A stretch of 41,742 nucleotides of DNA from a virus: IMG/VR virus record IMGVR_UViG_3300037086_000029, positions 1-41,742 of that record; one strand, 5' to 3'. Within the stretch, counting starts at the first letter, position 1, and each line of letters starts with the position of its first letter. Of this stretch, positions 1,243-41,440 are shown piece after piece. A program made the translations under genes and the position numbers. The notes beneath the pieces are model-generated. The model was not told where the DNA came from and searched no databases. It was given only the letters and a program-made list of their open reading frames with translations.

Positions 1243-1297
1243 CCTCCTAACACAAAAAACCGGCAATAAAGCCGGTGTGTCCGTTGATATCATTATA
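1243..1297 (-). promoter_or_regulatory. Late promoter with GGACACA hairpin leader (adaptor gene)
   Basis: The minus strand shows TGGTATAAT (-10 at 1292-1297), 9 nt, GGACACA (1282-1276), then a hairpin CCGGC-(6 nt)-GCCGG (1275-1260) and TTTTTTG. Unlike its sister sites it is followed by a real ribosome binding site, AGGAGG at 1248-1243. It is one of seven copies of this module in the window. Confidence 0.75.
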
Positions 1298-1300
1298 CCA

Positions 1301-2020
1301 CTAACTACCGACACTGAGTGTTGTTAATCCATGTCCTCCACTAAATAAACTTAATACCTCAGCAGCAGAAAGGGCACGATTAAAAACTGCAACATCATCA
1401 ATTACCGATGATGAGAAATTCTCCATTGTTCTAGCAGTATTTCCCCCGTCACATCCCGCTCCAATAGCGAACCCATCGTGTCCGGCCGAATTTCCACCCG
1501 CACCACTTGCAGCGGTCGGCCCCGCAACGAGTGCCCCATTTACATAACCTCTTATATTTGTAGCATCATAGGTATATACCATGTGATACCAATTTGCAGT
1601 TCCTAGTGTAATTGTATAATAAGAAGTTTCTGCCGCAACATTGTTTTTAGTACGATTAAACCCTATCCTCTGTGTTCCTCCGTTGTATTCATAGCTAAGC
1701 TGTTCTCTTACATAAGAGGTCGTTTTACTTGATTGACCAACTAACGTCCACGTTCCACTTCCTATTTCGGCCAATAACTTAACCCGGCAACAAATAGAAC
1801 AGGCTCCGCCATCTATTGTTAGATTTGAGGCAGAATCCAAAGATTTATTTGTATTAGTTGCCCCAAAATTAGACGCATTATTATATACACCCGTCGTAAA
1901 AGTAACGGTATTATTATTAGTTAAGGTATAAGAAGCCTTTGAATCGTTAACATTTTCCAATCTCCAATAACCAATTAAATTAGCATCACTAAATAGTGAG
2001 TTGTAGTAAAGTTCTGCCAT
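1301..2020 (-). CDS. LamG/concanavalin-like virion protein
   Basis: The 239-residue product has the LamG/laminin-G-like layout: an early LIGYWRLEN strand with the typical Y/W-R-L-E pattern, a central NWYHMVYTYD motif followed by RGYVNGALVAG, and a closing IDDVAVFNRALSAAEV segment. These folds bind carbohydrate or serve as adhesion domains in phage fibres. Start ATG 2020 overlaps the upstream TAA as TAATG, so translation is coupled. It is the last fibre-type gene before the adaptor promoter. Receptor or host-glycan binding is inferred. Confidence 0.7.
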   Translation of the reverse strand: MAELYYNSLFSDANLIGYWRLENVNDSKASYTLTNNNTVTFTTGVYNNASNFGATNTNKSLDSASNLTIDGGACSICCRVKLLAEIGSGTWTLVGQSSKTTSYVREQLSYEYNGGTQRIGFNRTKNNVAAETSYYTITLGTANWYHMVYTYDATNIRGYVNGALVAGPTAASGAGGNSAGHDGFAIGAGCDGGNTARTMENFSSSVIDDVAVFNRALSAAEVLSLFSGGHGLTTLSVGS

Positions 2021-2823
2021 TATAAGCCCACGTACCCCGATATAGAACAATATTGGGTAGTGCTTGAGGACCCGCAAACGAAGCCCAAGTTTTTATTGGC
2101 AACAGGGACTTTTAGTGGTACTGGAAAAGTTATATTATCCCCTCCCTGTACTGGGTTAATCATATACCAAATGGCGGTCTTAGCGGATGCCGTATCAGTT
2201 TCGATAGTTACTAAAGAAGTGGTAGCCCCAGTATTGGCGATTGATATCGAGGTAATGTAAATAAAAAGCCCTGCTCCTTGTGCTGCTATCACTGCGGTAT
2301 CGGCTGTATTAGCCACGCTTGCTATTCCTGAAACAAAATTTTCTGGGTTGGCGTATGGAAGCGTTATTAACTTACCTACTTTATCTGATACTAATTGAGC
2401 TTTGCGTGCTGTTGTAATTGCTGAGTTTTCTGAAGTCACTGCCTGCGCTCCAATATTTAGAGGTGCATCGGTAATCGCAACGTTGGTGGCCGTAATTGCT
2501 CCACCAGCCACTTTTGTAATATCTGCCGCCACCAAGTCGCTTGTCCCATGGGTTGTTTGATCTGTAGTTACCTTTCCGATAATATTAGTTCCCGCTTTTA
2601 AGACTATGTTTGCCTTGATATCTGTATCAATCGTTGTAAGTGAGGCATCTTTGGCTACTGTTGAATCAAGTGCTAATAATGAAGTATTTAGAGTCTGCTC
2701 AACTCCAGCTGAGCTATTTAATACCACTCGCTGAAGCTGTTTAGTTACCGCATCCTCAGTAAAAGAATTAGTAGCAAGATATGTCCCGCTCCCTGCTGTG
2801 ACTGGAATATTATTTGTAGCCAT
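2020..2823 (-). CDS. Virion/fibre-associated protein, Thr/Ala-rich
   Basis: The 267-residue product is rich in Thr, Ala, Ser, Val and Asn with many short beta-type segments and no membrane segment. That composition is typical of phage fibre or baseplate-like proteins. The N-terminal half contains AVTKQLQRVVLNSSAG and SLLALDSTVAKDASLTTID, a pattern shared with the neighbouring fibre gene at 4197 (VDATTHELLVKAS). Its C-terminal half looks like a compact beta domain ending in CSISGYVGL. It is coupled to both neighbours. No specific family is recognised. Confidence 0.55.
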   Translation of the reverse strand: MATNNIPVTAGSGTYLATNSFTEDAVTKQLQRVVLNSSAGVEQTLNTSLLALDSTVAKDASLTTIDTDIKANIVLKAGTNIIGKVTTDQTTHGTSDLVAADITKVAGGAITATNVAITDAPLNIGAQAVTSENSAITTARKAQLVSDKVGKLITLPYANPENFVSGIASVANTADTAVIAAQGAGLFIYITSISIANTGATTSLVTIETDTASAKTAIWYMINPVQGGDNITFPVPLKVPVANKNLGFVCGSSSTTQYCSISGYVGL

Positions 2824-3023
2824 TATGTTTTAGTCCAATTTGAGCTATTATTGCTCACCTTGGTATAGTTACTATTATACCCTATGTATGTAACTGTTAC
2901 ATCAGTTGCGTACGCATGACCACCCAAAATACCTATCAAAGTTCCTTTAGGAATGGTTACAGTAAAAGTCGGTTGAGCTTGTGTATAACTAGTTGAATTT
3001 TGAGATGGTTTAGTCCATGTCAT
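2823..3023 (-). CDS. Small fibre-cluster protein (66 aa)
   Basis: Starting at ATG 3023 (ATGA overlap with the stop of the S74 fibre gene) the product is a 66-residue, Thr/Ser/Tyr-rich, probably all-beta protein (TFTVTIPKGTLIGILGG, DVTVTYIGYNS). An upstream in-frame extension exists but lies inside the previous gene and is unlikely. No family is recognised. Its place between two fibre genes suggests a small structural or fibre-assembly protein. Confidence 0.5.
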   Translation of the reverse strand: MTWTKPSQNSTSYTQAQPTFTVTIPKGTLIGILGGHAYATDVTVTYIGYNSNYTKVSNNSSNWTKT

Positions 3024-4195
3024 TTTTCTAGTTTTTCTAATCTGGTTGTTAAATCTTCTACAACGGTTTGCAACTTTTGCACGCAACCATAAAGTGCTGC
3101 AATTATCTGTCCGCTATTTAAGTCCAAACAGTCCTTAATAATCTCTTCTTTTATAATTGGTCGTGTTTTAGTAACTGTAACAAATTGTGGTTTATTATCA
3201 ACTAATATAGTTTTACCCTTCTTGTCTAAAAGTGGTTTGTCAGTAACTTCTTCGTATTCTTCAACTTCACCTGTATCAATTTTTTTCGTAAAAGGAACAG
3301 TATTTACAGCTTTGGGAAAAGTTTTCTGGACATCTTGGGCAATCCAACCCAAACCATGTCTATCTTTTACCTGCTCTTCTGTATAGACCCCTTCTGTCCA
3401 ACCAAAATGTTTAAGAGGAATTGTTTTCACTATTTCGTAACACCTATCCAAGTCTGCGAGAACAATATCTTGCTTTAGTCGTTTATCTGAAACTACAGTC
3501 CACAATCCTCCAAGACCTGGTTTTCCTGCACTATCGCTACCAATTTCAAGTTTATAGTTAGGTGCTGTCGTCCCGATGCCGACGTTGCCGGTGCTTGTTA
3601 TTCTCATTCTTTCAGTCAATGTAGAATTGGAACCAAGGGTCGTCGCAAATACTAAGTAACCCGCCATATCAGTAGTCGCTCCATTTTCCTTTCTTCCCGT
3701 TATCGCCGCAAAGTTCCCTCTATCTCCAGCATTAGTGTAATTACCTCCAAATGTAAGTTCTCCACCTTTATCAGCCGCTTGTGCATCACTTGACCTTATT
3801 TGCACATTGCCCGCTGAATCCAAAACAGTGCTTGCTCCATAAATATCCAATTTGGTGACAGGTGCCGTCGTCCCGATGCCGACGTTGCCTAAGGAAGTAT
3901 CCACATATAATTGATTTGTGTTTACTGCCAAATCTCCCGTTGTTGCCAAAGTTACGTTTAAGTTTGAACCCGAAGCGGGTGTTATACCTACTGCCCCAGT
4001 ACCAATAATTGAAGGGGTTGAAATTGAAGTTGTGATAACTGGTGTAACAATAGTCGGAGAGGTGTCAACAACAAACTTCGTTCCTGTCCCCGTTTGAGAA
4101 GCGATTGAAGTAGCATTCCCAACCGAAGTAATTACTCCTGTCAGGTTGGCATTAGTAACTGGTTTGCTTGTTGTTGAAAATGTTTTTGTAGCCAT
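3020..4195 (-). CDS. Tail fibre with C-terminal S74 intramolecular chaperone
   Basis: The 391-residue protein has repeated fibre motifs VGIGTTAP near residues 105-112 and 205-212. A Peptidase_S74 / endosialidase-type intramolecular chaperone domain begins at SDKRLKQDI (about residue 236) and includes the LGWIAQDVQKTFP motif. In this family the domain trimerises the fibre and cuts itself off after the Ser-Asp pair; both residues are present. A coiled coil (about 360-391) closes the protein. It follows the 371-aa fibre gene by one base and is probably translated with it. The role is host recognition at the virion surface. Confidence 0.85.
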   Translation of the reverse strand: MATKTFSTTSKPVTNANLTGVITSVGNATSIASQTGTGTKFVVDTSPTIVTPVITTSISTPSIIGTGAVGITPASGSNLNVTLATTGDLAVNTNQLYVDTSLGNVGIGTTAPVTKLDIYGASTVLDSAGNVQIRSSDAQAADKGGELTFGGNYTNAGDRGNFAAITGRKENGATTDMAGYLVFATTLGSNSTLTERMRITSTGNVGIGTTAPNYKLEIGSDSAGKPGLGGLWTVVSDKRLKQDIVLADLDRCYEIVKTIPLKHFGWTEGVYTEEQVKDRHGLGWIAQDVQKTFPKAVNTVPFTKKIDTGEVEEYEEVTDKPLLDKKGKTILVDNKPQFVTVTKTRPIIKEEIIKDCLDLNSGQIIAALYGCVQKLQTVVEDLTTRLEKLEK

Positions 4196-4196
4196 A

Positions 4197-5312
4197 TTAA
4201 TTTATTCCAATGTAGGTAACTCCTTCTCCGTTCACGCTTGAATCTAAATTAACTGTTGCTAAATTTCCAATATCTAAACTTAAACTATCCCCCGCCAGTA
4301 AAGCAAAACCGTTAGTCGAAGCAACAGCAGTATCTCCCACGTAAATTATTCCCGTATTTGCTGCCAGAGCTTTAATAGTTACCGATTTAACTGCCTGAGA
4401 TGAGGCCAGAGTCACCCTGGTGCCAGCAGTTGTCACTACTTTTTTACCATTATAAATCGTAGTAGCCGCAGTTTCTTGGGTAGCAAAAGTTCCAGCATTG
4501 GTAACTTGATTATTACACCCAGCTGAACCATTCCAAAACTGAACACTCCCTAAACCCGTACCTGAGAAATCTACTGTAGCCTTGAGATTGGCAGCTGTTC
4601 CCTGAGTAACAGCAAAAGAAGTGTTTGCAATGCTCCCAGATTTAATATTTATATCTAAAGCGTTACTTGTACTTCCTATACCATTCGTTGAACTGTCATA
4701 CAGATGTGCTTCCGTTTTAAGGTTTGACGCCGTTCCTTGGGTGGCAGCGAAAGTTGTGTTAGAAATTGAACCCGATATATTTGCCGTAACAGTACCAGTA
4801 ATCGCACCCGAAATTACCCAAGGAGAAGTACCTTGATTAACTGTACCTATTACCTTAGAAGTTTCTGCATCAAGAGTAGCAGCGACTTTTAAGTTTGAAG
4901 CGGTAGATTGTGTGGCAATAAATGAGGTGTTAGCAATCGAACCCGAGGATATATTTACATTCATCTTAGAAGAACCCACTGCTCCCGCTATGGTGGCCAA
5001 GTTTCCACCAGTTTCAAGAGCAAATCCCGAAATAGTATTTACTGTCACACTAGATAAGGGAGTGAGAGTAGAAAGCTGAGAAGATGTTAAAACAACCGGA
5101 AGAGAAGCTGAAGCTACCTGTTGACCGAGAGCAAAAGTTGCTCCGCCCACTTGTTTCAGATTTGTGTCCTGAGTTCCCGAAGTGGTAGTGCTGGCTTTAA
5201 CTAATAATTCGTGTGTTGTTGCGTCAACAGCAGCGGTGGTCGGAACATTAAACCCTATACTGTCAACACCAATTAGTGTTTTTTCTCTGTTCTGGTCAAT
5301 AGCGGCGTTCAT
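4197..5312 (-). CDS. Repeat-containing fibre or virion protein
   Basis: The product is 371 residues long. Three copies of a repeat of about 40 residues occupy the middle. Each has the core SGSI(A/S)NT(S/T)F followed by a TQ-T/S-A-NLK element. Ser/Thr/Ala/Gly dominate and no membrane segment is present. Such repeats are typical of elongated beta fibres; receptor or surface binding is inferred. The gene begins a unit with its own hairpin-leader promoter; ATG 5312 follows the leader U-run with no ribosome binding site. The S74 fibre gene follows directly. Confidence 0.65.
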   Translation of the reverse strand: MNAAIDQNREKTLIGVDSIGFNVPTTAAVDATTHELLVKASTTTSGTQDTNLKQVGGATFALGQQVASASLPVVLTSSQLSTLTPLSSVTVNTISGFALETGGNLATIAGAVGSSKMNVNISSGSIANTSFIATQSTASNLKVAATLDAETSKVIGTVNQGTSPWVISGAITGTVTANISGSISNTTFAATQGTASNLKTEAHLYDSSTNGIGSTSNALDINIKSGSIANTSFAVTQGTAANLKATVDFSGTGLGSVQFWNGSAGCNNQVTNAGTFATQETAATTIYNGKKVVTTAGTRVTLASSQAVKSVTIKALAANTGIIYVGDTAVASTNGFALLAGDSLSLDIGNLATVNLDSSVNGEGVTYIGIN

Positions 5313-5360
5313 AAATAAAAATACCGCCAGTTAGGCGGTGTGTCCGATATCTATATTATA
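5313..5360 (-). promoter_or_regulatory. Late promoter with GGACACA hairpin leader (fibre genes)
   Basis: Minus strand: TGGTATAAT (-10 at 5355-5360), 9 nt, GGACACA, stem ACCGCC-(5 nt)-GGCGGT (5339-5323), then ATTTTTATTT and ATG 5312. No Shine-Dalgarno sequence is present. The stem sequence differs from the other copies while the flanks are the same. Confidence 0.8.
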
Positions 5361-5368
5361 CCACCGAA

Positions 5369-7860: not shown

Positions 7861-7866
7861 AATATA

Positions 7867-7872
7867 ATTGTA
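7867..7872 (-). promoter_or_regulatory. Extended -10 promoter, leaderless start
   Basis: The minus strand reads TGATACAAT with the hexamer 6 nt before ATG 7860. The TG two bases before the hexamer makes it an extended -10 site. No clear -35 is visible. It lies in the 31-nt gap after the gene ending at 7892. Confidence 0.5.
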
Positions 7873-7891
7873 TCATAATCAATTTTTTTGA

Positions 7892-8161: not shown

Positions 8162-8162
8162 G

Positions 8163-10298: not shown

Positions 10299-11438
10299 TT
10301 ATACTCCTGTTATTCCTGTTCCTTTACTGTGCCTTCTGAAAGAAAGCGGTACCATCTGTCCTATACAATAGAATCTTGCTATGCGACCTGCTTGATCCGG
10401 GATAGTTAATGGTTTCTGGAAGAACCAGCCATTCCATTCCGAGGGGGCTTCAAGAGCAATCGCTCCGGTTCCTTCGTAGGCTTCCATCGTACCAAAGTCT
10501 ACTTTCTCCAAAACGTCTTTGTACTCTTCGGGGATTTCATAGCGTCCCTTCCAGACTACATACTTTTCATTGACCATCCAAAGCATCTGAGCTGTGGAGA
10601 AGTAATCTCTGATAAGGTATGTCCCTCTGTAAGCGAGTGCGTCAAATCCTGCCGCTGATTTCAACTCGTCATTATTTCTGACTGCGAACTTGCCTCGTGT
10701 GGTTAGTTTGTTGTAACCAACCTCTGAGTAAGACTGTCTGACAAAAGGAGTTAACAAAGCTTCGTAATCTGAGAAGATAGCTGCTGAACAGAATCCTACG
10801 TTTGGCATTTCATCTGCTGCTCCCGGGGCTAAGGCTGAGTCATATTGAACAGCCATTGTTGCGAGGGTCAACTTACCACCCGAATATGCTGTTAAGGTTG
10901 AATTCAATGAAGAGTAAGTTGACTTAGAAAGTCCGCCAATTGTTGAGACGTTTGTCGTGTCGTCAATGATTGCTCCAAGTCCGAGAGGTTGATTGGCTGT
11001 TCCAAGTCCGTAAATAGCTGAGCCAAGCGTGTTCATGGCTTGTGCAGCTGCTTTCTCGTACTTAAATGTATCAAGATTGATAATTCCAAGTGAACCTACG
11101 TTTGCGAAGCTTTCAAGCATGATGCTAACAACCGGCTGGGTGTAGGCTGTGTGGGCGAAAGAACCTGTAACCGAAGTATTGACTGCTGAGCTGTTAAGAG
11201 TTTCAAGAGATGTGAAGAACTGTCCTTGCGTGTCTGCGGTCACATCGTAGGTAACATCTTCTGTTTTACCTTCGAATTTAGAACCTTGAGAAACTAATCT
11301 AGCATAAAGAGAAGGGAAGTTAAGAATCTGGTCAACTACTTTGGTGTAGAGCTGTCTGTTTCCTAAAACGTCAACACGGGAAGGTACGGCGATACCATCC
11401 GGTGCGAATCTTGCTGAAAGTTTAATAAATTTTGACAT
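10299..11438 (-). CDS. Major capsid protein
   Basis: The 379-residue protein lies directly after the acidic scaffold and portal genes and heads its own hairpin-leader transcription unit. It has no membrane segment. Its N-terminus (MSKFIKLSARF) carries the shared virion pattern. The length, the mixed alpha/beta composition and the position fit an HK97-fold capsid protein; a possible spine-helix and E-loop region falls at about residues 30-100. The identification rests mainly on position, length and strong leader, since no catalytic motif exists. The promoter and lack of ribosome binding site suggest high late expression through the hairpin leader. Confidence 0.75.
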   Translation of the reverse strand: MSKFIKLSARFAPDGIAVPSRVDVLGNRQLYTKVVDQILNFPSLYARLVSQGSKFEGKTEDVTYDVTADTQGQFFTSLETLNSSAVNTSVTGSFAHTAYTQPVVSIMLESFANVGSLGIINLDTFKYEKAAAQAMNTLGSAIYGLGTANQPLGLGAIIDDTTNVSTIGGLSKSTYSSLNSTLTAYSGGKLTLATMAVQYDSALAPGAADEMPNVGFCSAAIFSDYEALLTPFVRQSYSEVGYNKLTTRGKFAVRNNDELKSAAGFDALAYRGTYLIRDYFSTAQMLWMVNEKYVVWKGRYEIPEEYKDVLEKVDFGTMEAYEGTGAIALEAPSEWNGWFFQKPLTIPDQAGRIARFYCIGQMVPLSFRRHSKGTGITGV

Positions 11439-11498
11439 AAAAAAACCGACCTGCTTGGTCGGATGTGTTCCGTAAAACTAACTCTAAAGCATATTATA
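11439..11498 (-). promoter_or_regulatory. Late promoter with hairpin leader (capsid gene), variant spacing
   Basis: Minus strand: TATAAT at 11493-11498, a longer 21-nt gap, GGAACACAT (11471-11463), stem CCGACC-(5 nt)-GGTCGG (11462-11446), seven T and ATG 11438. The hairpin plus U-run has the shape of an intrinsic terminator placed between promoter and capsid gene. The 21-nt gap (9-10 nt in the six other copies) and GGAACACA instead of GGACACA make it the most divergent copy. Confidence 0.75.
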
Positions 11499-12753: not shown

Positions 12754-14808
12754 CTAAAGAATCCTCGGCGACCCCTGCGGAGGGCCGGTTGATGTCTGAG
12801 GGATAGCGATGGTGTTCATGGGGCTTGGGCCTTGTACTGGTGCCATAGGAGGCTGACCCTGCTGTGGCATTGTGGGTTGGGCAGGACTTACTGGCCCAGC
12901 CGCTGATGAAGATGTCTGGGGCATCGCTGCACCCGTTTGTTCAACATTCATCAGGGCTTGGGCAAGTGCCTGACTACTATCTAACTTTTTGCTGACCTTT
13001 TGCAGATAAGCCATAGGGTCAGTCTTAGCAAGGATTAGCTTCTCCGTTCTTCCTTCCGGATCAGATAATCCCATATCTACAAAGAATGTATAAGGATCAG
13101 TCATCTGCATTTTACCCATCTCTAAGGCGTTATTCTGAGCCCTGATCTTGTCGCTTCCACTAGACTTAATCTTGACAATCATACCCTCCATAATCATATT
13201 TCTATTAAGTTTCTGATAGACAACATCTCCTGCTACTCCCATGATCCATCTGAAGTGATCTTTGGTATACCTGAGTTTGATCCATTGCATTGACCAATCC
13301 CCCATCCACTGTCCTGCGGGATTGATAGTATCTTCGACTATATCATCAGCTGCGGTGAAGTCTCCCTCTCTTGCGATCTGGTTGCTGGTAGCGGGTGCTT
13401 CGGCTTTAATCTCGCCCCTGATAGCTTGTGAGTGAGCGATAGCATACATCCTGCCTCTAAGGTTATTTATCTCTTCAAACTCTTCTTTTGTGGGTCTTTC
13501 AGGGGCTATATAAGCATGAACTTCATTGACGTTACCTTCTACTGACAGGTCTACATTTGGTGCGTCTAAGTCCATTTCTTCTACATCTGAAGGGGTTAGA
13601 GCACCCTTGCTAAATATGTGGTGTCCTCTTGAATCGAGCGTCTCCTCAATCTGCTTGCCACGTTTATCCAGCGATCTCTGATTTTGAGTGTTCTGTTCTA
13701 CCCAACTTGTCTCATCCATCGGAGTCTTACCCCATTGGTCATAACCCATAAAGAAGAATGGTTTACGGGGGAAGCGGAAGTAATTGTGGTAAACCTGCAT
13801 CTCTTTGACATTACCCGGAGTTTGGCCCGTAAACAGTAACTGGGCTAACTCACTTTCATTTATAGCCCGTTTGGTATTCTCATCCTTAATATCATCATAG
13901 GCGAAGTATCTTCTCTCACCCTCGTAGTCAAAGTTGGGGTTCTTCATCTTGCCCAGGATACAATCTCCATACTTCCAGACTACAGCGTCTATTCTCTCAA
14001 CCTCGTCATCGGCTTTTCTTTTGTACTCAGTGAACCATACTTCGCTGTATTTAATCTCGGTAGCCAGTGCTTTCCACGTCTCCTTGCCTCCTGGCATTAA
14101 ACCATCTTTTTCTAGTTCTTTGTAAAACTCATCCTTTTTGCTGGGGAACTTGAGGGCTATCTGTTGAACCGTAGCGGGAACTTTCTGCATGACCCATTTC
14201 ATTTTATCTGAGTCATTGGTGGGGCAAGTCCAGTCAAATTTAACTAGGTCGGGGTGAATTACTCCGAAATCATAATCATCCTCTTCGTTATCCCACCAAG
14301 TCTTAATACATGAAGTGAAGTAAATCGGTAAGTGCTTATAAGCCAGACCTAGTACAAACCTTGAGTCCTGTTCTTTAATCTGAGTGTCAATAACTTTACC
14401 GATTTGGTCAGCTATCTCGGTAGCCTCGTCTGAGTCATAAGCCGGCAGAGCCATCATATCAGGTACTCTACTCATGGCTAGAGGTTTGACTGTCCCCATG
14501 ATCTCGTAAAGGACGTTATCCTGATACCTTGACTCGTAACTCTTTAACCTCTTCTCGTCCTCGGCTTGTTGAATTTGTCTGCCAAAGTAATAGACTTCAT
14601 TCTTTTTGCGTCTCTCAAATAAGTTGTATTTATCGGTGTAGAAATTGTTGTATCCGTCCTCGTAATCATCCAGTATCTTAACCAATTCTTCATCTTCAAT
14701 CTCTAATTTTAATGGGTCTAACGGAGGGGTCATCTGACCCTCTTGGGGATAATTGACATCAGGAATAGTCTCGTTAAAACTACCCTGCATTTTTTGATTG
14801 CCTTCCAT
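12754..14808 (-). CDS. Portal protein
   Basis: The 684-residue protein follows the terminase block and precedes the scaffold and capsid genes. It is rich in charged and aromatic residues and has the long alpha/beta profile of podovirus-type portals. The C-terminus (about 615-684) is a flexible Pro/Gln/Met/Ser tail. Start ATG 14808 is chosen because the earlier in-frame TTG lies in the leader hairpin. In the virion it would form the dodecameric DNA gate at one capsid vertex. The call is based on position, length and composition. Confidence 0.75.
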   Translation of the reverse strand: MEGNQKMQGSFNETIPDVNYPQEGQMTPPLDPLKLEIEDEELVKILDDYEDGYNNFYTDKYNLFERRKKNEVYYFGRQIQQAEDEKRLKSYESRYQDNVLYEIMGTVKPLAMSRVPDMMALPAYDSDEATEIADQIGKVIDTQIKEQDSRFVLGLAYKHLPIYFTSCIKTWWDNEEDDYDFGVIHPDLVKFDWTCPTNDSDKMKWVMQKVPATVQQIALKFPSKKDEFYKELEKDGLMPGGKETWKALATEIKYSEVWFTEYKRKADDEVERIDAVVWKYGDCILGKMKNPNFDYEGERRYFAYDDIKDENTKRAINESELAQLLFTGQTPGNVKEMQVYHNYFRFPRKPFFFMGYDQWGKTPMDETSWVEQNTQNQRSLDKRGKQIEETLDSRGHHIFSKGALTPSDVEEMDLDAPNVDLSVEGNVNEVHAYIAPERPTKEEFEEINNLRGRMYAIAHSQAIRGEIKAEAPATSNQIAREGDFTAADDIVEDTINPAGQWMGDWSMQWIKLRYTKDHFRWIMGVAGDVVYQKLNRNMIMEGMIVKIKSSGSDKIRAQNNALEMGKMQMTDPYTFFVDMGLSDPEGRTEKLILAKTDPMAYLQKVSKKLDSSQALAQALMNVEQTGAAMPQTSSSAAGPVSPAQPTMPQQGQPPMAPVQGPSPMNTIAIPQTSTGPPQGSPRIL

Positions 14809-14855
14809 AAATAGAAATAGACACGCCAAGTGGTGTGTCCTATGGCATTATTATA
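14809..14855 (-). promoter_or_regulatory. Late promoter with GGACACA hairpin leader (portal gene)
   Basis: Minus strand: TGGTATAAT (-10 at 14850-14855), 9 nt, then GGACACACC-ACTT-GGCGTGTC, in which GGACACA itself forms the 5' arm with one A-C mismatch, then TATTTCTATTT and ATG 14808. This copy shows that the stem may use the conserved box instead of a separate sequence. Confidence 0.75.
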
Positions 14856-14858: not shown

Positions 14859-15311
14859 CTAAAGACTCACCACGTCTGACAACGTATACTCTTTCTCGCA
14901 ACTGGGACAGGTAAAGTTATACGGCATGTTTATTAGAGTCTCTTCTGGTAGTCTAACAGCAATCTTGGGCGTGTATTTAATCAGAGGCATACGGCACAAA
15001 AAGCATCTGAAGATCGAACTATCCGTATTAGGTTGAGGAGAAAGAATTAAACTTGTCCTTTTGCGGTTACTCAATATGGTTTGAAAGGTATAGGCCTCAT
15101 GGCATTGATAACACGCATGAATAACGGGAACATCATAAGTTGGAACGAGTCCGGGGACGATACTTACTACCAATCCGGGTATTCTACTAACGGGTGTACC
15201 GCATCTGAAACATCTAAATAAACACGAATTATCGGGGTTATCTTTGTCTTTTGCTATGGATACGGTTTGTATCAGTAGTTCGGTTGGGACAGAATGAATT
15301 ATAATTCTCAC
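14859..15311 (-). CDS. Double zinc-ribbon protein (150 aa)
   Basis: Two zinc-ribbon units are visible: CFRCG (about residue 34) with CYQC (about 67), and CFLC (about 102) with CPSC (about 136). The spacing of about 32 residues between the knuckles is the same in each, so this is probably an internal duplication. The start is GTG 15311, overlapping the HNH stop as GTGA. No catalytic motif is seen. The role is unknown; such ribbons bind nucleic acid or protein. Confidence 0.55.
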   Translation of the reverse strand: MRIIIHSVPTELLIQTVSIAKDKDNPDNSCLFRCFRCGTPVSRIPGLVVSIVPGLVPTYDVPVIHACYQCHEAYTFQTILSNRKRTSLILSPQPNTDSSIFRCFLCRMPLIKYTPKIAVRLPEETLINMPYNFTCPSCEKEYTLSDVVSL

Positions 15312-18976: not shown

Positions 18977-19236
18977 TGTCTATAACTAAATACCATTCTC
19001 ATATCTTCAAGTTCCTTCCTCTCGTTTTTTTTTAGTTTGATATCACTATCTAGTGCGTACTCATCGTAGTGTCTGGGTAAGAGTGTAAGCATTTGAGCCA
19101 GGGGCGGGTCGATCATTAAGTCTACAATGCTCGTGTAATAATTCGAGGTATGTAAAACTAAATAAGGATGTCCGGTTTCTCGGTGTCTAATCAGTTGGTT
19201 TACTTTCCAGTTGGCTTTTGGCAGATCGTCCATCAT
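18964..19236 (-). CDS. Hypothetical protein (90 aa)
   Basis: The 90-residue protein has an N-terminal beta part with WKVNQLIRHRETGHPYLVLH, resembling small beta-barrel (KOW/SH3-like) phage proteins of the 'ligand pocket' type. A charged helical part follows. Start ATG 19236 (or the second Met) overlaps the upstream stop as ATGA. The fold suggestion is weak. Confidence 0.45.
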   Translation of the reverse strand: MMDDLPKANWKVNQLIRHRETGHPYLVLHTSNYYTSIVDLMIDPPLAQMLTLLPRHYDEYALDSDIKLKKNERKELEDMRMVFSYRQCFI

Positions 19237-19562
19237 TTTAAGTGCTTATTAAAACTGCTTTCTTCTTCTCCGTATACATATTTTGCATTCTTTATTTCCT
19301 TTTCCGTATATCCTTCATGTCTGGCTCTGTCTGCTCCATATACATCGACATATTCTTTATTTAACTCACCTTTTCGGTTGCTTTGAATTATGTCTCGATG
19401 ATACTTTTGTCTCTGCAACTTGATATCCTCTCCTACAAATTCTACTTGTCCCCCTGGCTTGGCTAATCTAGCTTGTTTCTCCTGACAAGAACGACAAGGC
19501 AGATAACCCCAATAATCATCATAAATAGCGTCATTTATTTTGCAAACTCCGCATTTAAGCAT
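19233..19562 (-). CDS. Zinc-knuckle protein (109 aa)
   Basis: An N-terminal four-cysteine site (CGVCKINDAIYDDYWGYLPC, then RSC) is followed by a charged helical region with Gln, Lys and Glu. The form CxxC-(about 15)-CxxC is common in small phage proteins whose function is unknown. It follows a 24-aa ORF coupled to GroEL. No enzyme motif is seen. Confidence 0.5.
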   Translation of the reverse strand: MLKCGVCKINDAIYDDYWGYLPCRSCQEKQARLAKPGGQVEFVGEDIKLQRQKYHRDIIQSNRKGELNKEYVDVYGADRARHEGYTEKEIKNAKYVYGEEESSFNKHLK

Positions 19563-21659: not shown

Positions 21660-22184
21660 TTACTTCACCACATCTCCTAAATCTATCGGGCTTTCTAATT
21701 CAGTTTGCCCTCGCAGGTCTCTTAATGTAATTTCAGCCAGAACTCCCTCATAATACCCTTTCCGTTTACCACTTCTGTAGCCCTTCTGGTAAGCCATTTT
21801 TTCAAGTCCAGTCCACATTGGTTTTGCTTTAGCGTCTTTTAGACCTTTGGCATATCCTTTATTATAGGAATAGACTTCTACATTTTCTATGGCCTCCCCG
21901 TCTTTTTTACCTTTGGTATAACCACGCTTAAAAGCCAATTCCGTTATCTTTGCTTTAGAATTAGGTTTAACTTTGACATAGGTTTCAATAGTTTTGTGAA
22001 CCAAATGATGTTTAAGTGCATATTCCCTTGTGTGTCTGTAATGTTTCCGTACTTTCTTAACTTTAAGTCTATTCTCTACTCCTGTGCCGTGACAAACCTG
22101 GCAACCTATTAAACCGTATGGCCAACCAATCCTTACTCCTTTTCCTTTACAATTTTTGCATTTCTTTGTTTTTAGGTTTGTCAT
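21660..22184 (-). CDS. DnaJ-type zinc-finger protein with GY-G repeats
   Basis: Starting at ATG 22184, the 174-residue protein has CKNCKGKG near residue 9 and CQVCHGTG near residue 28. This CxxCxGxG pair is the hallmark of DnaJ (Hsp40) zinc fingers. No J-domain (HPD) is present. The middle and C-terminal parts hold three copies of an aromatic-K-GY-x-(K/S)G-x-(K/R) repeat (KRGYTKGKKDG, NKGYAKGLKDA, QKGYRSGKRKG), resembling Yae1-type repeats. It lies directly before GroES/GroEL, so an adaptor role in the same folding block is plausible. Confidence 0.6.
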   Translation of the reverse strand: MTNLKTKKCKNCKGKGVRIGWPYGLIGCQVCHGTGVENRLKVKKVRKHYRHTREYALKHHLVHKTIETYVKVKPNSKAKITELAFKRGYTKGKKDGEAIENVEVYSYNKGYAKGLKDAKAKPMWTGLEKMAYQKGYRSGKRKGYYEGVLAEITLRDLRGQTELESPIDLGDVVK

Positions 22185-22208
22185 TTTATATTTCTTTCTT
22201 TGCAAACC

Positions 22209-22541: not shown

Positions 22542-22790
22542 CTATTTAGCCTTATCCTGAAACTCTGCTGGTAAAGGTTGTCCAATTTCTTCTAAAACCT
22601 TTCCTGCCCACATTTTTGCTTCCTGCAACTTGGTATAAACTAAAGCGATTTCTCTTTTACCTTTTTCATACCTCGTATCGTTTTTGACATTTCCGACATA
22701 TCCAATTATGGCATCAACTTTTTGTCTGATGTCGTGCATTTTCTCGTCGTAATCCATTTCTCTTGTATCTTGTGAGTCGTCTGACTGCAT
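22542..22790 (-). CDS. Acb2/Tad1-like cyclic-nucleotide sponge (anti-defence)
   Basis: The 82-residue helical protein ends with a signature resembling the Acb2/Tad1 helical-hairpin family: KREIALVYTKLQEAKMWAGK at about residues 45-64, followed by VLEEIG. These proteins form oligomers that bind signalling cyclic nucleotides and so block CBASS or Thoeris host defence. Length and the two-helix layout fit (about 15-35 and 46-70). A strong ribosome binding site (GAGGAGGTGA) precedes ATG 22790, unusual for this phage, consistent with early strong translation. The assignment is from motif memory and should be confirmed by profile search. Confidence 0.65.
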   Translation of the reverse strand: MQSDDSQDTREMDYDEKMHDIRQKVDAIIGYVGNVKNDTRYEKGKREIALVYTKLQEAKMWAGKVLEEIGQPLPAEFQDKAK

Positions 22791-23127: not shown

Positions 23128-24198
23128 TCATGCCGAAAGAACAGTGTTTCCTCGGATTGCTATGTTTATAGCCCCGACTCTGTCCGCATTGCTTTCGTAG
23201 TTACATTTGCGACACTTAAATACTGATTGTGTCCGTCTGTTATTGCGAGAGCAATATTGACATTTAGGGCAAGTCTTACTCGTACCTCTAGGGTCAACAT
23301 ATACAACTGTAATACCTGCTAGTTTAGCTTTGTACTCAATAAAGTCTGCCAGTTGCCGAAATGACCAACCTTTGAGCATTTTTCTACTTTTCTTGTGTAC
23401 CTTTAACCTCTCGGTAATACCTGTTAATTTTTCAAGTGCGATACTTCTTTTATTCTTAATAGCCATGTTCACTATTTCTCGGCTAATTTTATGGTTTTCG
23501 TTAGTGACCCAATTCGCTTCGTGTTTACTAATTCTTTTAAGAAACTTATATACATTTCCCTGTTTTAGTTTAGGCTCTACCCCTTTGCGTAACTCCATAA
23601 AATGATTCTTCTTGAATCTGTAAGGCTCTCCGTTAAAAAATCTTGTATGTTTTCCGTTCCAATCACAAGTTACTGCGGTTTTGGCTATTCCTAAATCTAC
23701 TCCCATAAATCGTTTGTAATTTTTAGGTTTAGGTTCAGTTCGGTCAATACGCAAATAACAAAGCCATTCACCATTTATCTTTTTAAGTATGCTTTCCTTT
23801 GTCGTTCCTGAGACAGGTTCTTTGTAAAGATATTCTACCCAAGTACGCTTTGATCCATCTGAGAAAATTAAACCAACTTTAAATCCGTCAATCTTTATTT
23901 CCCTTAAAGATAAAAAGACCTTATTGAACTTACTGGAATGCTTTGCCGTTTTATGATTCACCTTCATCATTGTTACGGCTCTATATCCAGCAAATTGAAT
24001 TAAATTTGAACCCAACTTGAATAGTCGTTTTGCTTCAAAATATGGTTCACCACTTAAGTCCTTCAAACTGGTGCTCTGTTTATCTTTGATTACTTCTACA
24101 AAATAGTTAGCACATTTACTCTGTTCGGATGCTAATAGACTCAACTTTTCGTCTAATTCGTTACTAACTACCAATTTTACAGGTATGGTTACTACCAT
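23128..24198 (-). CDS. tnpB: TnpB (IS200/IS605-type RNA-guided nuclease)
   Basis: The 356-residue protein has an intact RuvC site: VDLG (D168), ALEKL (E256) and NADRVGAINIA (D339). A four-cysteine zinc finger carries CPKC (310-313) and CRKC (329-332). The N-terminal part binds the omega-RNA. No TnpA transposase is encoded nearby, so the element is immobile alone or has been kept for another use. TnpB cuts DNA next to a short target motif with its 3' RNA as guide. The start ATG 24198 is leaderless. Confidence 0.9.
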   Translation of the reverse strand: MVVTIPVKLVVSNELDEKLSLLASEQSKCANYFVEVIKDKQSTSLKDLSGEPYFEAKRLFKLGSNLIQFAGYRAVTMMKVNHKTAKHSSKFNKVFLSLREIKIDGFKVGLIFSDGSKRTWVEYLYKEPVSGTTKESILKKINGEWLCYLRIDRTEPKPKNYKRFMGVDLGIAKTAVTCDWNGKHTRFFNGEPYRFKKNHFMELRKGVEPKLKQGNVYKFLKRISKHEANWVTNENHKISREIVNMAIKNKRSIALEKLTGITERLKVHKKSRKMLKGWSFRQLADFIEYKAKLAGITVVYVDPRGTSKTCPKCQYCSRNNRRTQSVFKCRKCNYESNADRVGAINIAIRGNTVLSA

Positions 24199-29372: not shown

Positions 29373-29423
29373 TATACTACTTATTCAAGAGACGGACTTC
29401 CGAAAGGGAGTCCTTTTCTTTTT
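29373..29423 (+). ncRNA. Plus-strand promoter-terminator pair (tiny RNA?)
   Basis: On the plus strand TGCTATACT (extended -10, hexamer 29373-29378) is followed after 15 nt by a hairpin GGACTTCC-GAAA-GGGAGTCC (29394-29413) and TTTTCTTTTT. The hairpin with U-run is a clear intrinsic terminator for the plus strand. If the -10 is used, the RNA is only about 40 nt. No plus-strand gene precedes it. The 170-nt gap 29320-29489 otherwise holds only the repeat at 29331. Confidence 0.5.
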
Positions 29424-29489
29424 AACTTACCAAATATCTTTCTCCAAGTATTATTGGGTTTCTTTCTTTTCTTGGGGATTATGGGGATT

Positions 29490-31969: not shown

Positions 31970-32261
31970 AACCCTTTCGCATTTCAAAGTAACTAATTAC
32001 CAAAAAAGTTACTGTTGAGGAGGCTATTGCGGCGAAGATTGGAGCTATATATTTCTTCGGGCCTTGGATTGCCTCTTCTAGTACCTGAATTCTAATCTCG
32101 GTTTCTTTGGCGACATCTTTTAATTCTTCTCTTGAGGCAAAAATACCCGGCAAACCTTTAATACTGGTTTTAATCTCGTCAAGTGAACTAGCCATATCGG
32201 ATTGCCTGGAATCAACCCTTATTAGCAAATCATGATCTTTTAAGTCTATTGGTTTTGTCAT
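31965..32261 (-). CDS. Coiled coil with C-terminal membrane anchor (98 aa)
   Basis: Residues 1-70 are charged and helical (coiled coil), and a single membrane helix (IAPIFAAIASSTVTFLVISY) lies near the end, followed by a short basic tail. This resembles XhlA-type or holin-accessory proteins in lysis cassettes. It is ATGA-coupled to the proline-rich gene upstream and directly precedes the amidase. Confidence 0.6.
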   Translation of the reverse strand: MTKPIDLKDHDLLIRVDSRQSDMASSLDEIKTSIKGLPGIFASREELKDVAKETEIRIQVLEEAIQGPKKYIAPIFAAIASSTVTFLVISYFEMRKGL

Positions 32262-32665
32262 CCTTGTATTCCATTAGGTTCCGGTATCATCGCATTTAAT
32301 AATTTCTCTTCCATCTTCCCTTTATGGTCTAGGTGATGACTTAGGGCTTTCAAAATAAGTTCTGTTTCCGATACCGGCATGGCTGGCTGGGGGGCTGATG
32401 ATGCTGTCGCTTGTTGGGCAACTTCAGGAGGGACTTGAGGGGCTGGTTGACCTTGTAATTGTTGAGGTACTGGCTGGCCTGCTCTCTTAAAATGGCGGTG
32501 CAAAGCGGTCTCACCTATGGCGGGAGACATATTAGGCATTGGAGAAGAGGCAGGGGGCATCATTCCTGGATTAAACCCTGGATTAGAACTAGACATTTGA
32601 TCTAAAGCGGGTACGCCCGCATTCATGCTTCTGTTTACTTGACCTACGATTGATGATGGTTGCAT
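32258..32665 (-). CDS. Pro/Met/Gln-rich protein (135 aa)
   Basis: Start ATG 32665 follows the leader U-run. The protein is of low complexity (Pro, Met, Ser, Gln, Ala) in residues 1-95, with a helical charged end (ETELILKALSHHLDHKGKME). It begins a late unit that leads into the lysis genes. No family is recognised; it may be a virion protein or flexible linker. Confidence 0.55.
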   Translation of the reverse strand: MQPSSIVGQVNRSMNAGVPALDQMSSSNPGFNPGMMPPASSPMPNMSPAIGETALHRHFKRAGQPVPQQLQGQPAPQVPPEVAQQATASSAPQPAMPVSETELILKALSHHLDHKGKMEEKLLNAMIPEPNGIQG

Positions 32666-32709
32666 AAAAAAGGAACACAAAATAGATGTGTTCCTTGAGA
32701 TATATTATA
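32666..32709 (-). promoter_or_regulatory. Late promoter with hairpin leader (lysis-side unit)
   Basis: TATAAT (32704-32709), 9 nt, then AGGAACACA pairs perfectly with TGTGTTCCT (32695-32671, 9-10 bp), followed by TTTTTT and ATG 32665. As in the portal copy, the conserved GGAACACA box forms the stem itself. No ribosome binding site is present. Confidence 0.75.
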
Positions 32710-35193: not shown

Positions 35194-35194
35194 A

Positions 35195-35743: not shown

Positions 35744-35745
35744 TT

Positions 35746-36552
35746 TTAATAAGTTGCAACTCCTGTTTTAGTTGTGAGCATGGACGGATTGATAATAGAT
35801 TTAGTCAGGGCGTTTGTAAGTGTATTTCCATTCGATACTGCGGTAAGCGGTATCTCAGCTGTAGCAACTGCTTCCTGATACTTTTCTTCTGTTGCAGCCA
35901 AAGTCTGTGCCATGGTCATCTCATTACCCGACAAAGTTACACCACTCTGCATCTTGTCTATTAAACCGTTAAATTGATCTTGTAAAGTTTGATTCCAACC
36001 TGTGGCTTGTGCAGCCTCCTGATTTGTAACCAGAGTACCTTGTGCTTGATAAGGAAGTAAAGCGTTTGCAATATAAGTACCGGAAAGACCTGCAGCTGTA
36101 TTTGCATTAGCAGTAGCCGCATTGGCTTGGGGAGTTAAATAGGCCGTACTATTGGCTATTCCATTGTTTATGTCCGTTGCATCCACATCGTACCCTTTGG
36201 CTGCAATGTAGGCATTAGGGGTGGCATTTGTAACTCTATTTTGTAAATTAGTGGCAGTCGTTTCGAGGTTTGGCGTATTATACATATCCATACCAGTCTT
36301 ATAAATAGAAGGAATAGCGTTGGCAAAATTAGATATATAACTGTTTGTTTCTCCGTTTAAGAGAGAACCCAAACTATTATCTCCATTACCTAGACTTGTT
36401 TGCTGAGCACCTGTGGTTTGGGTGGGATCAAAACTTGCAATAGCGTTTTTTCCTGTATCTGTCCCATTAGTAGAATTATCAGTAGCTGCCGATAGATCAG
36501 GTGAACTAGGAATAGTCGTATCAAATCTCGCTTGTAGTTTTAAGTATTTCAT
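35746..36552 (-). CDS. Virion protein with MKYLKL-type N-terminus (268 aa)
   Basis: The protein begins MKYLKLQARF, as in the major capsid and two other virion proteins. The rest is Asn/Thr/Ala-rich, helical in the centre (about 100-250), with no membrane segment or motif. It heads a late unit (hairpin leader) with the CHAP and 772-aa genes. It may be an internal virion or tail-associated protein. Confidence 0.6.
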   Translation of the reverse strand: MKYLKLQARFDTTIPSSPDLSAATDNSTNGTDTGKNAIASFDPTQTTGAQQTSLGNGDNSLGSLLNGETNSYISNFANAIPSIYKTGMDMYNTPNLETTATNLQNRVTNATPNAYIAAKGYDVDATDINNGIANSTAYLTPQANAATANANTAAGLSGTYIANALLPYQAQGTLVTNQEAAQATGWNQTLQDQFNGLIDKMQSGVTLSGNEMTMAQTLAATEEKYQEAVATAEIPLTAVSNGNTLTNALTKSIINPSMLTTKTGVATY

Positions 36553-36600
36553 AAAAAAACCGAGGTCAAAGCCTCGGTGTGTCCGTTACCTTATATTATA
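36553..36600 (-). promoter_or_regulatory. Late promoter with GGACACA hairpin leader (virion unit)
   Basis: TGGTATAAT (-10 at 36595-36600), 10 nt, GGACACA (36584-36578), stem CCGAGG-(6 nt)-CCTCGG (36577-36560), then TTTTTTT and ATG 36552. No ribosome binding site. Confidence 0.8.
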
Positions 36601-36606
36601 CCACCT

Positions 36607-37317: not shown

Positions 37318-37322
37318 AAACT

Positions 37323-37328
37323 ATTATA
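37323..37328 (-). promoter_or_regulatory. Promoter for the HNH gene, leaderless start
   Basis: TATAAT (37323-37328) lies 5 nt before ATG 37317. A TTTACT at about 17 nt upstream is a weak -35. Confidence 0.55.
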
Positions 37329-37342
37329 CTGTGTATCAGTGG

Positions 37343-37711: not shown

Positions 37712-37728
37712 TTTTATTTTCTTCCGAT

Positions 37729-40700
37729 CTATAACGAATCCTCGGAAATCAACGGGTCTTGATCTAAGGTCAAAGATAACAAGGTCGGGGATGTACCATT
37801 GGTTTGAGTCATGGTTACACCTATTTGAACCTCATTAACTCTACCATTATTTATCAACTGTTTAGTGTATTTGCTTCCGACTGTTGAGTCTGCGGTTAGT
37901 TGAGCAAAAGTACCTCTTTCAAGGCTGACTTCAGGAGTAATACTCTCTCCTGTCTTGAGAGGAGAATAGACCGCTTTTAAGGCTAGATTATTATCATCAT
38001 GCCACATCTTGCCTCCGTCATTTAATAATAACTGAATCTCCCCGTTGGGGGCAGGAGGGTTGTTAAAGTTGATTACATCACACCCATATCCCGATCCGTC
38101 CCGCCAACCGATTAAAAGGTTCTGTCCTACGGGGTAAACTAAGCCTATCGTAACGCTCGATCCTCTGTTACCAGTCGAGATAGGATAGTCAAACGATAGA
38201 GCTTCGGGATAAAAAGGATTAAGCGTCCCGTAAGAATAGGCTCCCCTTTGAGAAGTAGTTGACGAGCTGTTTGCATACAGTCCCATATGTAATAATCCTC
38301 TCCACATATTCAAGGCTCCGGGATAAACCTCAGTATAAGTATTCGATTCCAAAAGGGGCATCTTTTTAATCTTATTAGATTCTGAATTGCCCGTATTGTA
38401 AAAATATCCGCCTTTGTAATCCAAGAGTTGTCCCCTGTAACCTGCAAACATATAGAGGTCTGAGTCTACACCGAATAAGGCGTTTATCTGTCCTTCAGGT
38501 ACGTCTATGAAGAAATCATACGCAGGCTGATATCCCGTCCAGAAGTAAATTCTTCCTTGGTGTAAATCGTAAATGTTCCCGCCTTTCCATACTCCGATGG
38601 CTAGATATTGCCTCCACTGAGCAAAGCATCTTACCTTCCAGCCCGGAGTTAGAGTAATAAAATTAGGTATATAGTTAGCCCCATCCCAGACTGCGAGATA
38701 GCGTTCGTTTCCTATAATCTCCGCACCCGTTAGTGAACCTCCTAGAGGTTGATATTGGAATTGAACGATAGGGTGGAATTGAGTATCGGGTACAAGGAAT
38801 CCGAAATAAGTCGTATATTCTGCGGTTGAGAAATTAGCTGTAGTCCCAGTAACTACTTTAGATGTCCCCGCACTTACCGTGAGGTGCATATGATAAGTTT
38901 GTTTGAAAACCAATCTCCAAGGGTTAGCGAAGATAAACTCTACAAATCCTGATGTCGGGATATTGGCATTTAGGATTGTTTTAGTAGCGATAACTCTATT
39001 CTGTTGATCGTGGACTGTAACCGTCCAGTCTCCTGACCCCTTAGTGTCTACAAAGAACCCAACCGAGGCTTGGGGGTCATTGACTGGTGTAAAAGGTAAC
39101 ATATCTGCCGAGTTCTCGGCTATCGCAGTCAAAAGTGTGTAAGTCTGCCCTGTGAGGACACTTACAGCGTCTATATCCAGTCTGGTTGTAGCTCCCACAA
39201 AAGGCACATCAGTCGAGAATGTCGGGCTTCCGTGAGAGGTAAGAGTATTCGTGTTAGCTGTAGCATCTGTATAGGCTGAGTTGAATTTATAATAGGCTGA
39301 TAATCCTGCCGAGGCCACGGGGATTTGAGTTAAACAGTTAGTAAGTATCTGCGTAGCGGTTTGGGCGTTAGACCATATCCTCATATCGTTTAACAGTCCG
39401 TCAAAGTAATTCGCTACTGCACTTGTTTTATTTGCTCCGACATACAAAAGTGAGGCGTTGTCATGTATAGCTGTTTTTGTTCCAACGAACGTGCCTAAAC
39501 TAACGGCATTCATGTAGAATGTAGCGGTTGACGTACTTGCCACCCACGAAACCGATATTCTATTCCGAACACCCGTGGTAATACCTACTAAATTTTGACT
39601 AAGATACTCAAAAGCTGTGCCATCACTCGAAATCCCAAGTCTGCACTGAGTAGTATTCGTAGTAACTAGAGTATTATCCTGAGCATAATTAAGAGTCGGG
39701 GAAGTGGTACCTGTATAGGAAGTGTAGTAGTCAAGATGAATACGACCAACTCCGCCATCTCCTCCATGTCCATTTGAAGTACCTCCGCTTCCAGCTAACG
39801 CAACAATAACTCCCGTACCCAAAGTTGCGGTTTGTGCCTTGAGTAGAATTGATCCTCCTGCACCCCCGCCTCCGCTTCCAGCTCCAGCATCTCCGTTTGT
39901 TCCGTTAGAACCATCAAATCCATTGGATGTAATCGAAGTTCCTGAAGCAATGGTTGTTCCTGTAATAAAGACTATACCTCCGCCATTCCCTCCCGAACCA
40001 CCGACTCCTCCTCCAGTTGTGCTTTTTCCTCCACCTCCGCCACCACCTAAGACTATTGTTGTTAAATCCGCCGACCCCGCAACTCCTCCGCCATAACCGC
40101 CCTGAGGGGAGGGTGGCGAACCCGAACCTTCTGTTTGTCCATTTGACCCTGAAGTTCCGTTGCCTCCACCTCCGCCAGCTGATCCATTCATGTTGGCATC
40201 TCCACCATAACCATTTCCGCCACCATTTCCATTTGCTAAATATGTATCTCCGCCAGCACCGAGAGTTCCTTCACCTTGTGCATTGTGACTTCCTTTCCTA
40301 AATCCTGTACCATCGGCACTTATTTTTCCCGTAATCGTTCCAGTTGCCAAGAAAGCCAAAATACCACCCTTTGTACCGTTCCATGCCTTTGCGGTATAGG
40401 TTTTGCCTGTATTTACCGTAACATTGGTATATTGAGGTAGAACTCTGACTTGTGCCCCTGAAACATAGTCATTTTTAAGCGGTGTACCCAGAGTTATGGT
40501 TCCCGCAGTGTAACCTTGAATTGTATTTCTCTCCCACTGGCCCGCCCCTGTCCCCTGAGTCTGGTGAATTAAAATTACCTGTCCTTGTGCAAATGCGGCG
40601 TTTGTCGCTGACAAGGCCTGTGTACCACTACTCCCTGTACATGACGAGTCTACGGGGGCTTCTGTGGTGTCTGTTGAGATTGTAAGAGCACTATCCCCTC

Positions 40701-41391
40701 CGTTACCAAAATATCCAGACACTCCGTATAAATCTAGTTTATAAGACCTTGTTGCCCCCGATTCGTCCCATTTACCAAGTAACGTCATTGAACTTCCGAC
40801 TGCTGGCAGGGAATTACACTTAAAGAATGTTTCGAGTGTAAGGTCGCCTGTAACTGATAATGAAACCGAATCTGCCGCACTTCCGTACATTGACGAGGCT
40901 GAGGCTAATAATAGTGAGGCTGTGTTAGTCGGAATACCACCCTGAGCTTGTAAAAAGTTGGGAGTGAATACGGGTGAATTAGATGTCGGACCATACCTTG
41001 AAATAGAGGTATCTGAGGTTAAGTAAACAAAGTCATCCCCTGAAAAATAAGATAAACCATTTCCGTGTGAATTGGGAACCACTCCGATACTTGACCACGA
41101 TCCCAATGTACTTCTTGAGTAGAAATTACCCGCATCTCCATAACTAAATACTACCAAACTGGTAGGAACTATATCAGCCCACTTAAGTAAATCGATGACT
41201 ACGTTTCCCGATTCTTTCAATGCACCCGGTAAAAGTGTGAGAGCTTGAGGGTCGTTTCTGAAGTCCACCGAACGGCCAAAGTAAAACTGAGAGGGAACTT
41301 GAAATGCTGACCCTTCTTTTAGGTACTCAGAAATTCCGCCAATCCATCTTTTCTGCTCTTCTTTATTGTCTGTTGATTCATTTTTAGGCAT
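37729..41391 (-). CDS. Large tail/nozzle-like protein with split LamG domain
   Basis: The 1220-residue protein has an N-terminal segment (FGRSVDFRNDPQALTLLPGA) and a C-terminal beta-rich half (about 760-1220) of the podovirus nozzle / tail tubular B type. In between, a LamG-like domain appears split: first part about 165-245, second part about 580-720 (WSNAQTATQI, LSAYYKFN). A Gly-rich insert (about 250-575) separates them. It begins a late unit; ATG 41391 follows the leader U-run. It probably forms the tail tip; the inserted domains may add host adhesion. Confidence 0.65.
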   Translation of the reverse strand: MPKNESTDNKEEQKRWIGGISEYLKEGSAFQVPSQFYFGRSVDFRNDPQALTLLPGALKESGNVVIDLLKWADIVPTSLVVFSYGDAGNFYSRSTLGSWSSIGVVPNSHGNGLSYFSGDDFVYLTSDTSISRYGPTSNSPVFTPNFLQAQGGIPTNTASLLLASASSMYGSAADSVSLSVTGDLTLETFFKCNSLPAVGSSMTLLGKWDESGATRSYKLDLYGVSGYFGNGGDSALTISTDTTEAPVDSSCTGSSGTQALSATNAAFAQGQVILIHQTQGTGAGQWERNTIQGYTAGTITLGTPLKNDYVSGAQVRVLPQYTNVTVNTGKTYTAKAWNGTKGGILAFLATGTITGKISADGTGFRKGSHNAQGEGTLGAGGDTYLANGNGGGNGYGGDANMNGSAGGGGGNGTSGSNGQTEGSGSPPSPQGGYGGGVAGSADLTTIVLGGGGGGGKSTTGGGVGGSGGNGGGIVFITGTTIASGTSITSNGFDGSNGTNGDAGAGSGGGGAGGSILLKAQTATLGTGVIVALAGSGGTSNGHGGDGGVGRIHLDYYTSYTGTTSPTLNYAQDNTLVTTNTTQCRLGISSDGTAFEYLSQNLVGITTGVRNRISVSWVASTSTATFYMNAVSLGTFVGTKTAIHDNASLLYVGANKTSAVANYFDGLLNDMRIWSNAQTATQILTNCLTQIPVASAGLSAYYKFNSAYTDATANTNTLTSHGSPTFSTDVPFVGATTRLDIDAVSVLTGQTYTLLTAIAENSADMLPFTPVNDPQASVGFFVDTKGSGDWTVTVHDQQNRVIATKTILNANIPTSGFVEFIFANPWRLVFKQTYHMHLTVSAGTSKVVTGTTANFSTAEYTTYFGFLVPDTQFHPIVQFQYQPLGGSLTGAEIIGNERYLAVWDGANYIPNFITLTPGWKVRCFAQWRQYLAIGVWKGGNIYDLHQGRIYFWTGYQPAYDFFIDVPEGQINALFGVDSDLYMFAGYRGQLLDYKGGYFYNTGNSESNKIKKMPLLESNTYTEVYPGALNMWRGLLHMGLYANSSSTTSQRGAYSYGTLNPFYPEALSFDYPISTGNRGSSVTIGLVYPVGQNLLIGWRDGSGYGCDVINFNNPPAPNGEIQLLLNDGGKMWHDDNNLALKAVYSPLKTGESITPEVSLERGTFAQLTADSTVGSKYTKQLINNGRVNEVQIGVTMTQTNGTSPTLLSLTLDQDPLISEDSL

Positions 41392-41440
41392 AAAAATACC
41401 CGCACTAAGCGGGTGTGTCCTATGACCCTATTATACACCT
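41392..41440 (-). promoter_or_regulatory. Late promoter with GGACACA hairpin leader (nozzle-like gene)
   Basis: TGTATAAT (-10 at 41430-41435), 9 nt, GGACACA (41420-41414), stem CCCGC-(5 nt)-GCGGG (41413-41399), then TATTTTT and ATG 41391. The promoter overlaps the end of the HNH gene. Confidence 0.8.

Follow-up and report, generated by a model that had tools for sequence, protein, structure and literature searches.

Putative attenuators made of two overlapping hairpins recur before late genes in a clade of phages that probably infect Patescibacteria

Why should a structure shaped like an intrinsic terminator stand, again and again, between a promoter and the gene behind it? The question is raised by an IMG/VR virus record, here called the window (the whole stretch of 41,742 nucleotides that was analysed), in which TATAAT, GG(A)ACACA, a hairpin and a U-run follow one another in seven copies, all on the minus strand and each before a gene. 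An earlier note had pointed out these sites and offered three explanations for them, an attenuation or antitermination signal, a 5' stabiliser and a translation-start element; that interpretation is partly supported by the analysis given here. Gene regulation in Patescibacteria phages is almost unexplored, and the module offers an RNA element that can be tested, is shared across the family and covaries strongly.

All seven sites are present as claimed (module coordinates are on the minus strand). Module 1 (1254-1297) begins with TATAAT at 1297-1292 and continues with a mini-hairpin, CGG(ACACA)CCG, at 1283-1273, a terminator with the stem ACCGGC/GCCGGT at 1276-1259 and a U-run to 1254; the gene behind it (272-1234) is tail-fibre-like on the basis of a tail-fibre PHROG match. 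Module 2 (5317-5360; TATAAT 5360-5355) has CGG(ACACA)CCG at 5346-5336, a terminator at 5339-5323 and a U-run to 5317, before the gene at 4197-5312. Module 3 (11439-11498), where TATAAT (11498-11493) is accompanied by a TTGACA -35 element, carries CGGA(ACACA)TCCG at 11472-11460, a terminator at 11462-11446 and a U-run at 11445-11439, and precedes the major capsid gene (10299-11438, capsid PHROG match). At the portal gene (12754-14808, portal PHROG match), module 4 (14809-14855; TATAAT 14855-14850) has GG(ACACA)CC at 14840-14832, a terminator at 14840-14819 and an interrupted U-run (UUUCUAUUU) to 14809. Module 5 (32666-32709; TATAAT 32709-32704) combines GGA(ACACA)TCT at 32694-32684 with a terminator at 32696-32670 and a U-run to 32666, before a gene (32258-32665) whose family is present in 17 of 18 genomes. 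The family behind module 6 (gene 35746-36552) is also found in 17 of 18 genomes, many of them with a module before the gene; here (36553-36600) TATAAT lies at 36600-36595, CGG(ACACA)CCG at 36585-36575, the terminator at 36578-36559 and the U-run down to 36553. Module 7 (41392-41435; TATAAT 41435-41430), with GG(ACACA)CC at 41420-41412, a terminator at 41414-41398 and a U-run to 41392, precedes a gene of 1220 amino acids (37729-41391).

The core TATAAT-N9/10-GGACACA occurs five times in the window and was expected 0 times in 100 dinucleotide shuffles; the two remaining copies read GGAACACA, with TATAAT at a spacing of 9 at 32.7 kb and of 21 at the capsid, in agreement with the spacings first described (9-10 nt, 21 at the capsid). 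The promoter takes the form TGGTATAAT in four of the seven copies and TGATATAAT in one. The best fold of each leader contains the hairpin (-10.6 to -13.5 kcal/mol) and then the U-run, as had been stated for every copy. That the module ends at a start codon does not hold at module 1, where the gene has no in-frame AUG, GUG or UUG near the module (1232-1248, minus strand); a homologue's AUG aligns with ACG at 1234-1232, and just before it stands AGGAGG, the sole strong Shine-Dalgarno sequence among the seven modules. The other six copies do lack one, yet this is not specific to the module, SD-like 4-mers being rare genome-wide (before 9 of 50 window genes, and 4 of 63 modules). Across 18 genomes, 81-100% of module genes have a T directly before the start codon (UAUG), even with the U-run farther off. 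The claim that the copies precede virion or late genes stands for the capsid, portal and tail-fibre-like genes, with the qualifier that late genes may instead have leaderless promoters without a module.

Within the window GG(A)ACACA is indeed shared, and its GG(A) pairs with the bases that follow ACACA to give a further small hairpin (strands a and b, a stem of 2-4 bp around the 5-nt loop ACACA), which overlaps the terminator. Strand b is usually the start of the terminator 5' strand, which pairs with strand c and is followed by the U-run; in modules 4 and 5 the terminator takes strand a and the loop instead. Because a:b and the terminator share a strand, the two hairpins are mutually exclusive, and the predicted folds have the anatomy of an attenuator, in which, between promoter and gene, a terminator and an antiterminator hairpin upstream of it exclude each other. 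The mean energy is -11.7 kcal/mol for the terminator stems and -1.7 for the mini-hairpin (in several copies a:b has 2-3 bp and an energy near zero), so that read-through should need help.

As a fixed motif GG(A)ACACA does not survive comparison with relatives, which were found through the capsid and portal proteins: the GGACACACC string is altered there, yet the bases around the short loop still pair, as in GAG-ACACA-CTC, AAGG-ACATA-CCTT, GCAA-ACATA-TTGC, GTCA-ACTTA-TGAC, GGCC-ACCTA-GGTC, GGGT-AATTTA-ACCC and AGTC-ATTTTC-GACT. With a conserved core of about 11 nt, the covariance model suggested at the outset was replaced by direct pairing tests. When loop length is left free, complementarity between the upstream strand and the terminator 5' strand peaks at 5 (24 against 2.8 expected), and in wider relatives at 5-7. 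Among 129 combinations of -10 box and terminator chosen regardless of a:b pairing, 88 have an overlapping hairpin with a loop of 5-7, whereas 200 swaps of partners give 20.6 (32 at most) and shuffled upstream sequence gives 9.8; in the same set loops of 3, 4, 9 and 10 lie at background and a loop of 8 slightly above it. With the loop as the only anchor, pairing at three positions reaches 91-94% (43-57% when swapped). Stem cells pair in 94.9% in the relatives (53.9% shuffled), 40 cells have both sides changed (10.6 expected) and the covariation score is 1.079 (0.259 shuffled), shuffle counts that, the sequences being related, are not probabilities and with which the swapped-partner and slid-column controls agree. 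The covariation predicted by the earlier note is found, most tellingly in the mini-hairpin and not in the terminator stem alone.

Within one genome the loops hardly change while the stems do, and from genome to genome the loops differ; on a single contig of one relative (G007 contig 1), six sites have six different stems around the loops ACTTA, ACATA or ACCTA. Loop position 4 never differs within a genome and differs in half of the between-genome pairs of the tested set, a comparison made on a site table compiled by hand. A fixed GGACACA protein or DNA site was rejected, since stems vary within one genome and still pair; a protein bound to a set DNA sequence would not tolerate such stems. The pattern would naturally point to a factor that recognises the loop and evolves together with it.

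We consider it slightly better than an even bet (a probability of about 0.55) that the module is a promoter-proximal attenuator of late operons, with two mutually exclusive hairpins of which a:b is stabilised by a loop-reading factor. The sequence itself shows the two overlapping hairpins and how they covary, how the loop is conserved within genomes, the U-run and where the genes lie; from these we infer where transcription starts, that it terminates, that a factor reads the loop and that expression is late. RNA synthesis would begin a few bases ahead of strand a, at a host-type promoter whose -10 is mostly extended. In the default state b (or, in some copies, a and the loop) would pair with c as an intrinsic terminator, and transcription would end just before the gene. 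A factor recognising the mini-hairpin through its conserved loop (ACACA in this phage) would stabilise a:b, the base of the terminator could then not form, and polymerase would enter the late gene, the seven copies making up a late regulon on constitutive-looking promoters. Consistent with such an attenuator, modules recur before orthologous late genes, and the antitermination option first proposed gains from a competing hairpin that had been missed and from a U-run anchored on the hairpin.

The same arrangement could be read in other ways, which the position of the U-run, the tandem copies and the loops help to weigh. If hairpin and U-run served to position or mask the start codon, as a translational switch or start element, it would make sense that half of the copies have the start codon no more than 10 nt from the hairpin and that strand c is often G-rich. 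The U-run, however, is tied to the hairpin and not to the start codon: where the start codon is near, T reaches 0.78-1.0 at positions 1-6 after the hairpin, and where it is 11-50 nt away, T stands at 0.84-1.0 in those positions and at just 0.19-0.55 at -7 to -2 before the start; hairpin and U-run are still there with start codons 11-43 nt off. Strand c, moreover, is not SD-like in several copies, and SD-like sequences are rare anyway, which leaves this explanation improbable. We give a similarly low rating to a 5' stabiliser, a strong hairpin shielding late mRNAs from decay near their 5' end; in most copies the hairpin does start about 10-15 nt from the predicted 5' end, but neither the U-run nor the competing a:b strand would be needed, some capsid leaders are longer, and internal second units occur. 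The latter come from two lineages (G001, 21649/21691; G018, 10299/10344) in which the capsid gene is preceded by units in tandem, the second with its own mini-hairpin but without its own promoter.

That the terminator mainly ends the preceding operon, with the mini-hairpin acting in cis to free polymerases from the embedded promoter and no dedicated factor involved, is unlikely without being negligible. The strong terminator-like structures listed for the coding strand of the window are those of the modules, 64 of 108 strong terminator-like hairpins in the 18 genomes have a -10 box upstream and an ORF start downstream, upstream genes often end beside the promoter, and the regulator search gave no factor. 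Such a boundary, if it has no reader, would nevertheless not account for loops conserved genome by genome; read-through RNA contains strand a as well, so that escape in cis gives no obvious distinction, and tandem units would be redundant. Practically no weight remains for chance similarity or an inherited string without RNA function: six window copies carry GGACACA or GGAACACA almost literally, but the relatives show compensatory changes and zero matches are expected, and a chance origin is ruled out by the swapped-partner, covariation and dinucleotide-shuffle tests.

Counting against the attenuator, no phage gene tracks the presence of the module, and the loop factor may therefore be host-encoded or absent. 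The zinc-ribbon gene at 14859-15311 is conserved in 18 of 18 genomes and 19233-19562 in 17 of 18, and the conserved small zinc proteins were rejected as the tracking factor because they also occur in phages without modules; Pfam and PHROGs gave generic zinc matches only for the candidate regulators. A weak PHROG match named Q-like (21660-22205, E 8e-4) was not found in 12 relatives. The minus strand of the window also carries GroEL-like and GroES-like phage genes (19640-21612), common to 12 of 18 relatives, a small protein (22542-22790) with a Pfam match (E 2e-6) to the Acb2/Tad1 hairpin domain, whose family is known for sponge proteins with an anti-defence role, and, in the early region, a TnpB-like protein (23128-24198; Cas12f1-like TNB domain, E 1e-22).

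The module was seen in one clade of phages, with up to about ten copies per genome. These phages probably infect Patescibacteria, judging from one phage-like contig in a Patescibacteria MAG and a distant TM7 phage; a second phage-like case was not found among 380 genomes of the phylum. Outside the clade, other IMG/VR contigs with TATAAT and a GGACATACC or GGACACACC core gave only chance-like matches without a terminator, and neither the distant TM7 phage MG269973 nor MW202566 had a detectable module. An element used host-wide was rejected, there being no loop-5 enrichment in the 390 kb sampled of the linked MAG chromosome, where one of 5 promoter-terminator combinations has a:b. Complementarity upstream of terminator-like hairpins on that chromosome (L032-L051) exceeds expectation at loop 4 (23 against 13.3). 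In a relative with a 50% identical capsid protein (G013, L188-L189), the scan found no module; three of the five late genes inspected there have TATAAT 6-7 nt before the start codon and are leaderless, the portal gene has it about 13 nt before, and the capsid gene retains a mini-hairpin-like stretch without a terminator. Some late genes, several of them in this genome, have leaderless promoters and no module, so the switch is not obligatory; joint loss of all modules would fit the loss of a shared factor, in this single case. Orthologous late genes alternate between leaderless and switch-controlled promoters. The module family as a whole suggests a terminator/antiterminator switch that is compact and transferable, with a loop-binding regulator behind it. 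Put more broadly, and with somewhat less than even confidence, a Patescibacteria phage clade would run its late regulon by a tiny RNA antiterminator, with a stem of 2-5 bp and a loop of 5-7 nt, repeated at as many as about ten promoters in a genome and read by a factor coevolving with the loop.

No description of the module was found in the literature, and no module in the window and three relatives matches Rfam at the curated threshold, sub-threshold matches lying elsewhere only. At 29373-29424 on the plus strand, a weak sub-threshold ctRNA match falls on an isolated TG-TATACT -10 followed by a terminator-like hairpin, with no opposite-strand ORF, possibly a very short RNA. Among known systems, the ANTAR/EutV elements share the small hairpin with a conserved loop and free stem sequence that overlaps a terminator, and there protein binding stabilises the hairpin (PMC8934654, PMC3369936). 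Two hexaloop hairpins carrying A1 and G4 make up the ANTAR motif; the second overlaps the terminator, and a single hexaloop is the minimal protein-binding unit (PMC8934654, PMC3369936). The phage loops, in contrast, are of 5-7 nt (ACACA in all window copies) with no conserved G4, six-nt loops such as AATTTA having T at position 4, and the mini-hairpin is single, with a few nt before it in most predicted leaders. An ANTAR profile (PF03861) gave no match above cut-off in 15 phage records, with one sub-threshold match in G014, and the control genomes were also without a match. BglG/SacY/LicT systems likewise have an antiterminator hairpin that is mutually exclusive with a terminator before the gene. 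Their RAT is a larger, sequence-specific hairpin. The CAT_RBD protein (PF03123) is absent from these phages (0 of 15 records) and from the linked MAG, whereas 4 control genomes were positive. In the lambda Q pR'-tR' system, too, late genes lie behind a promoter and a downstream terminator to be overridden, but the site that Q recognises is DNA and lies within the late promoter itself, of which lambda has one (PMC6606751). Here the element would be an RNA hairpin, present up to about ten times in a genome. The boxB of lambda has a pentaloop, and lambda N-nut and HK022 put act on distant terminators and are not known to share a strand with one. These are, as the module would be, phage nascent-RNA hairpins that suppress termination (PMC9378689). 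In its proposed logic the module resembles lambda Q control, and in its RNA anatomy it comes nearest to ANTAR/EutV and the LicT-type RAT; we class it as a variant form of transcription attenuation that is new, outside the ANTAR, LicT and lambda Q families.
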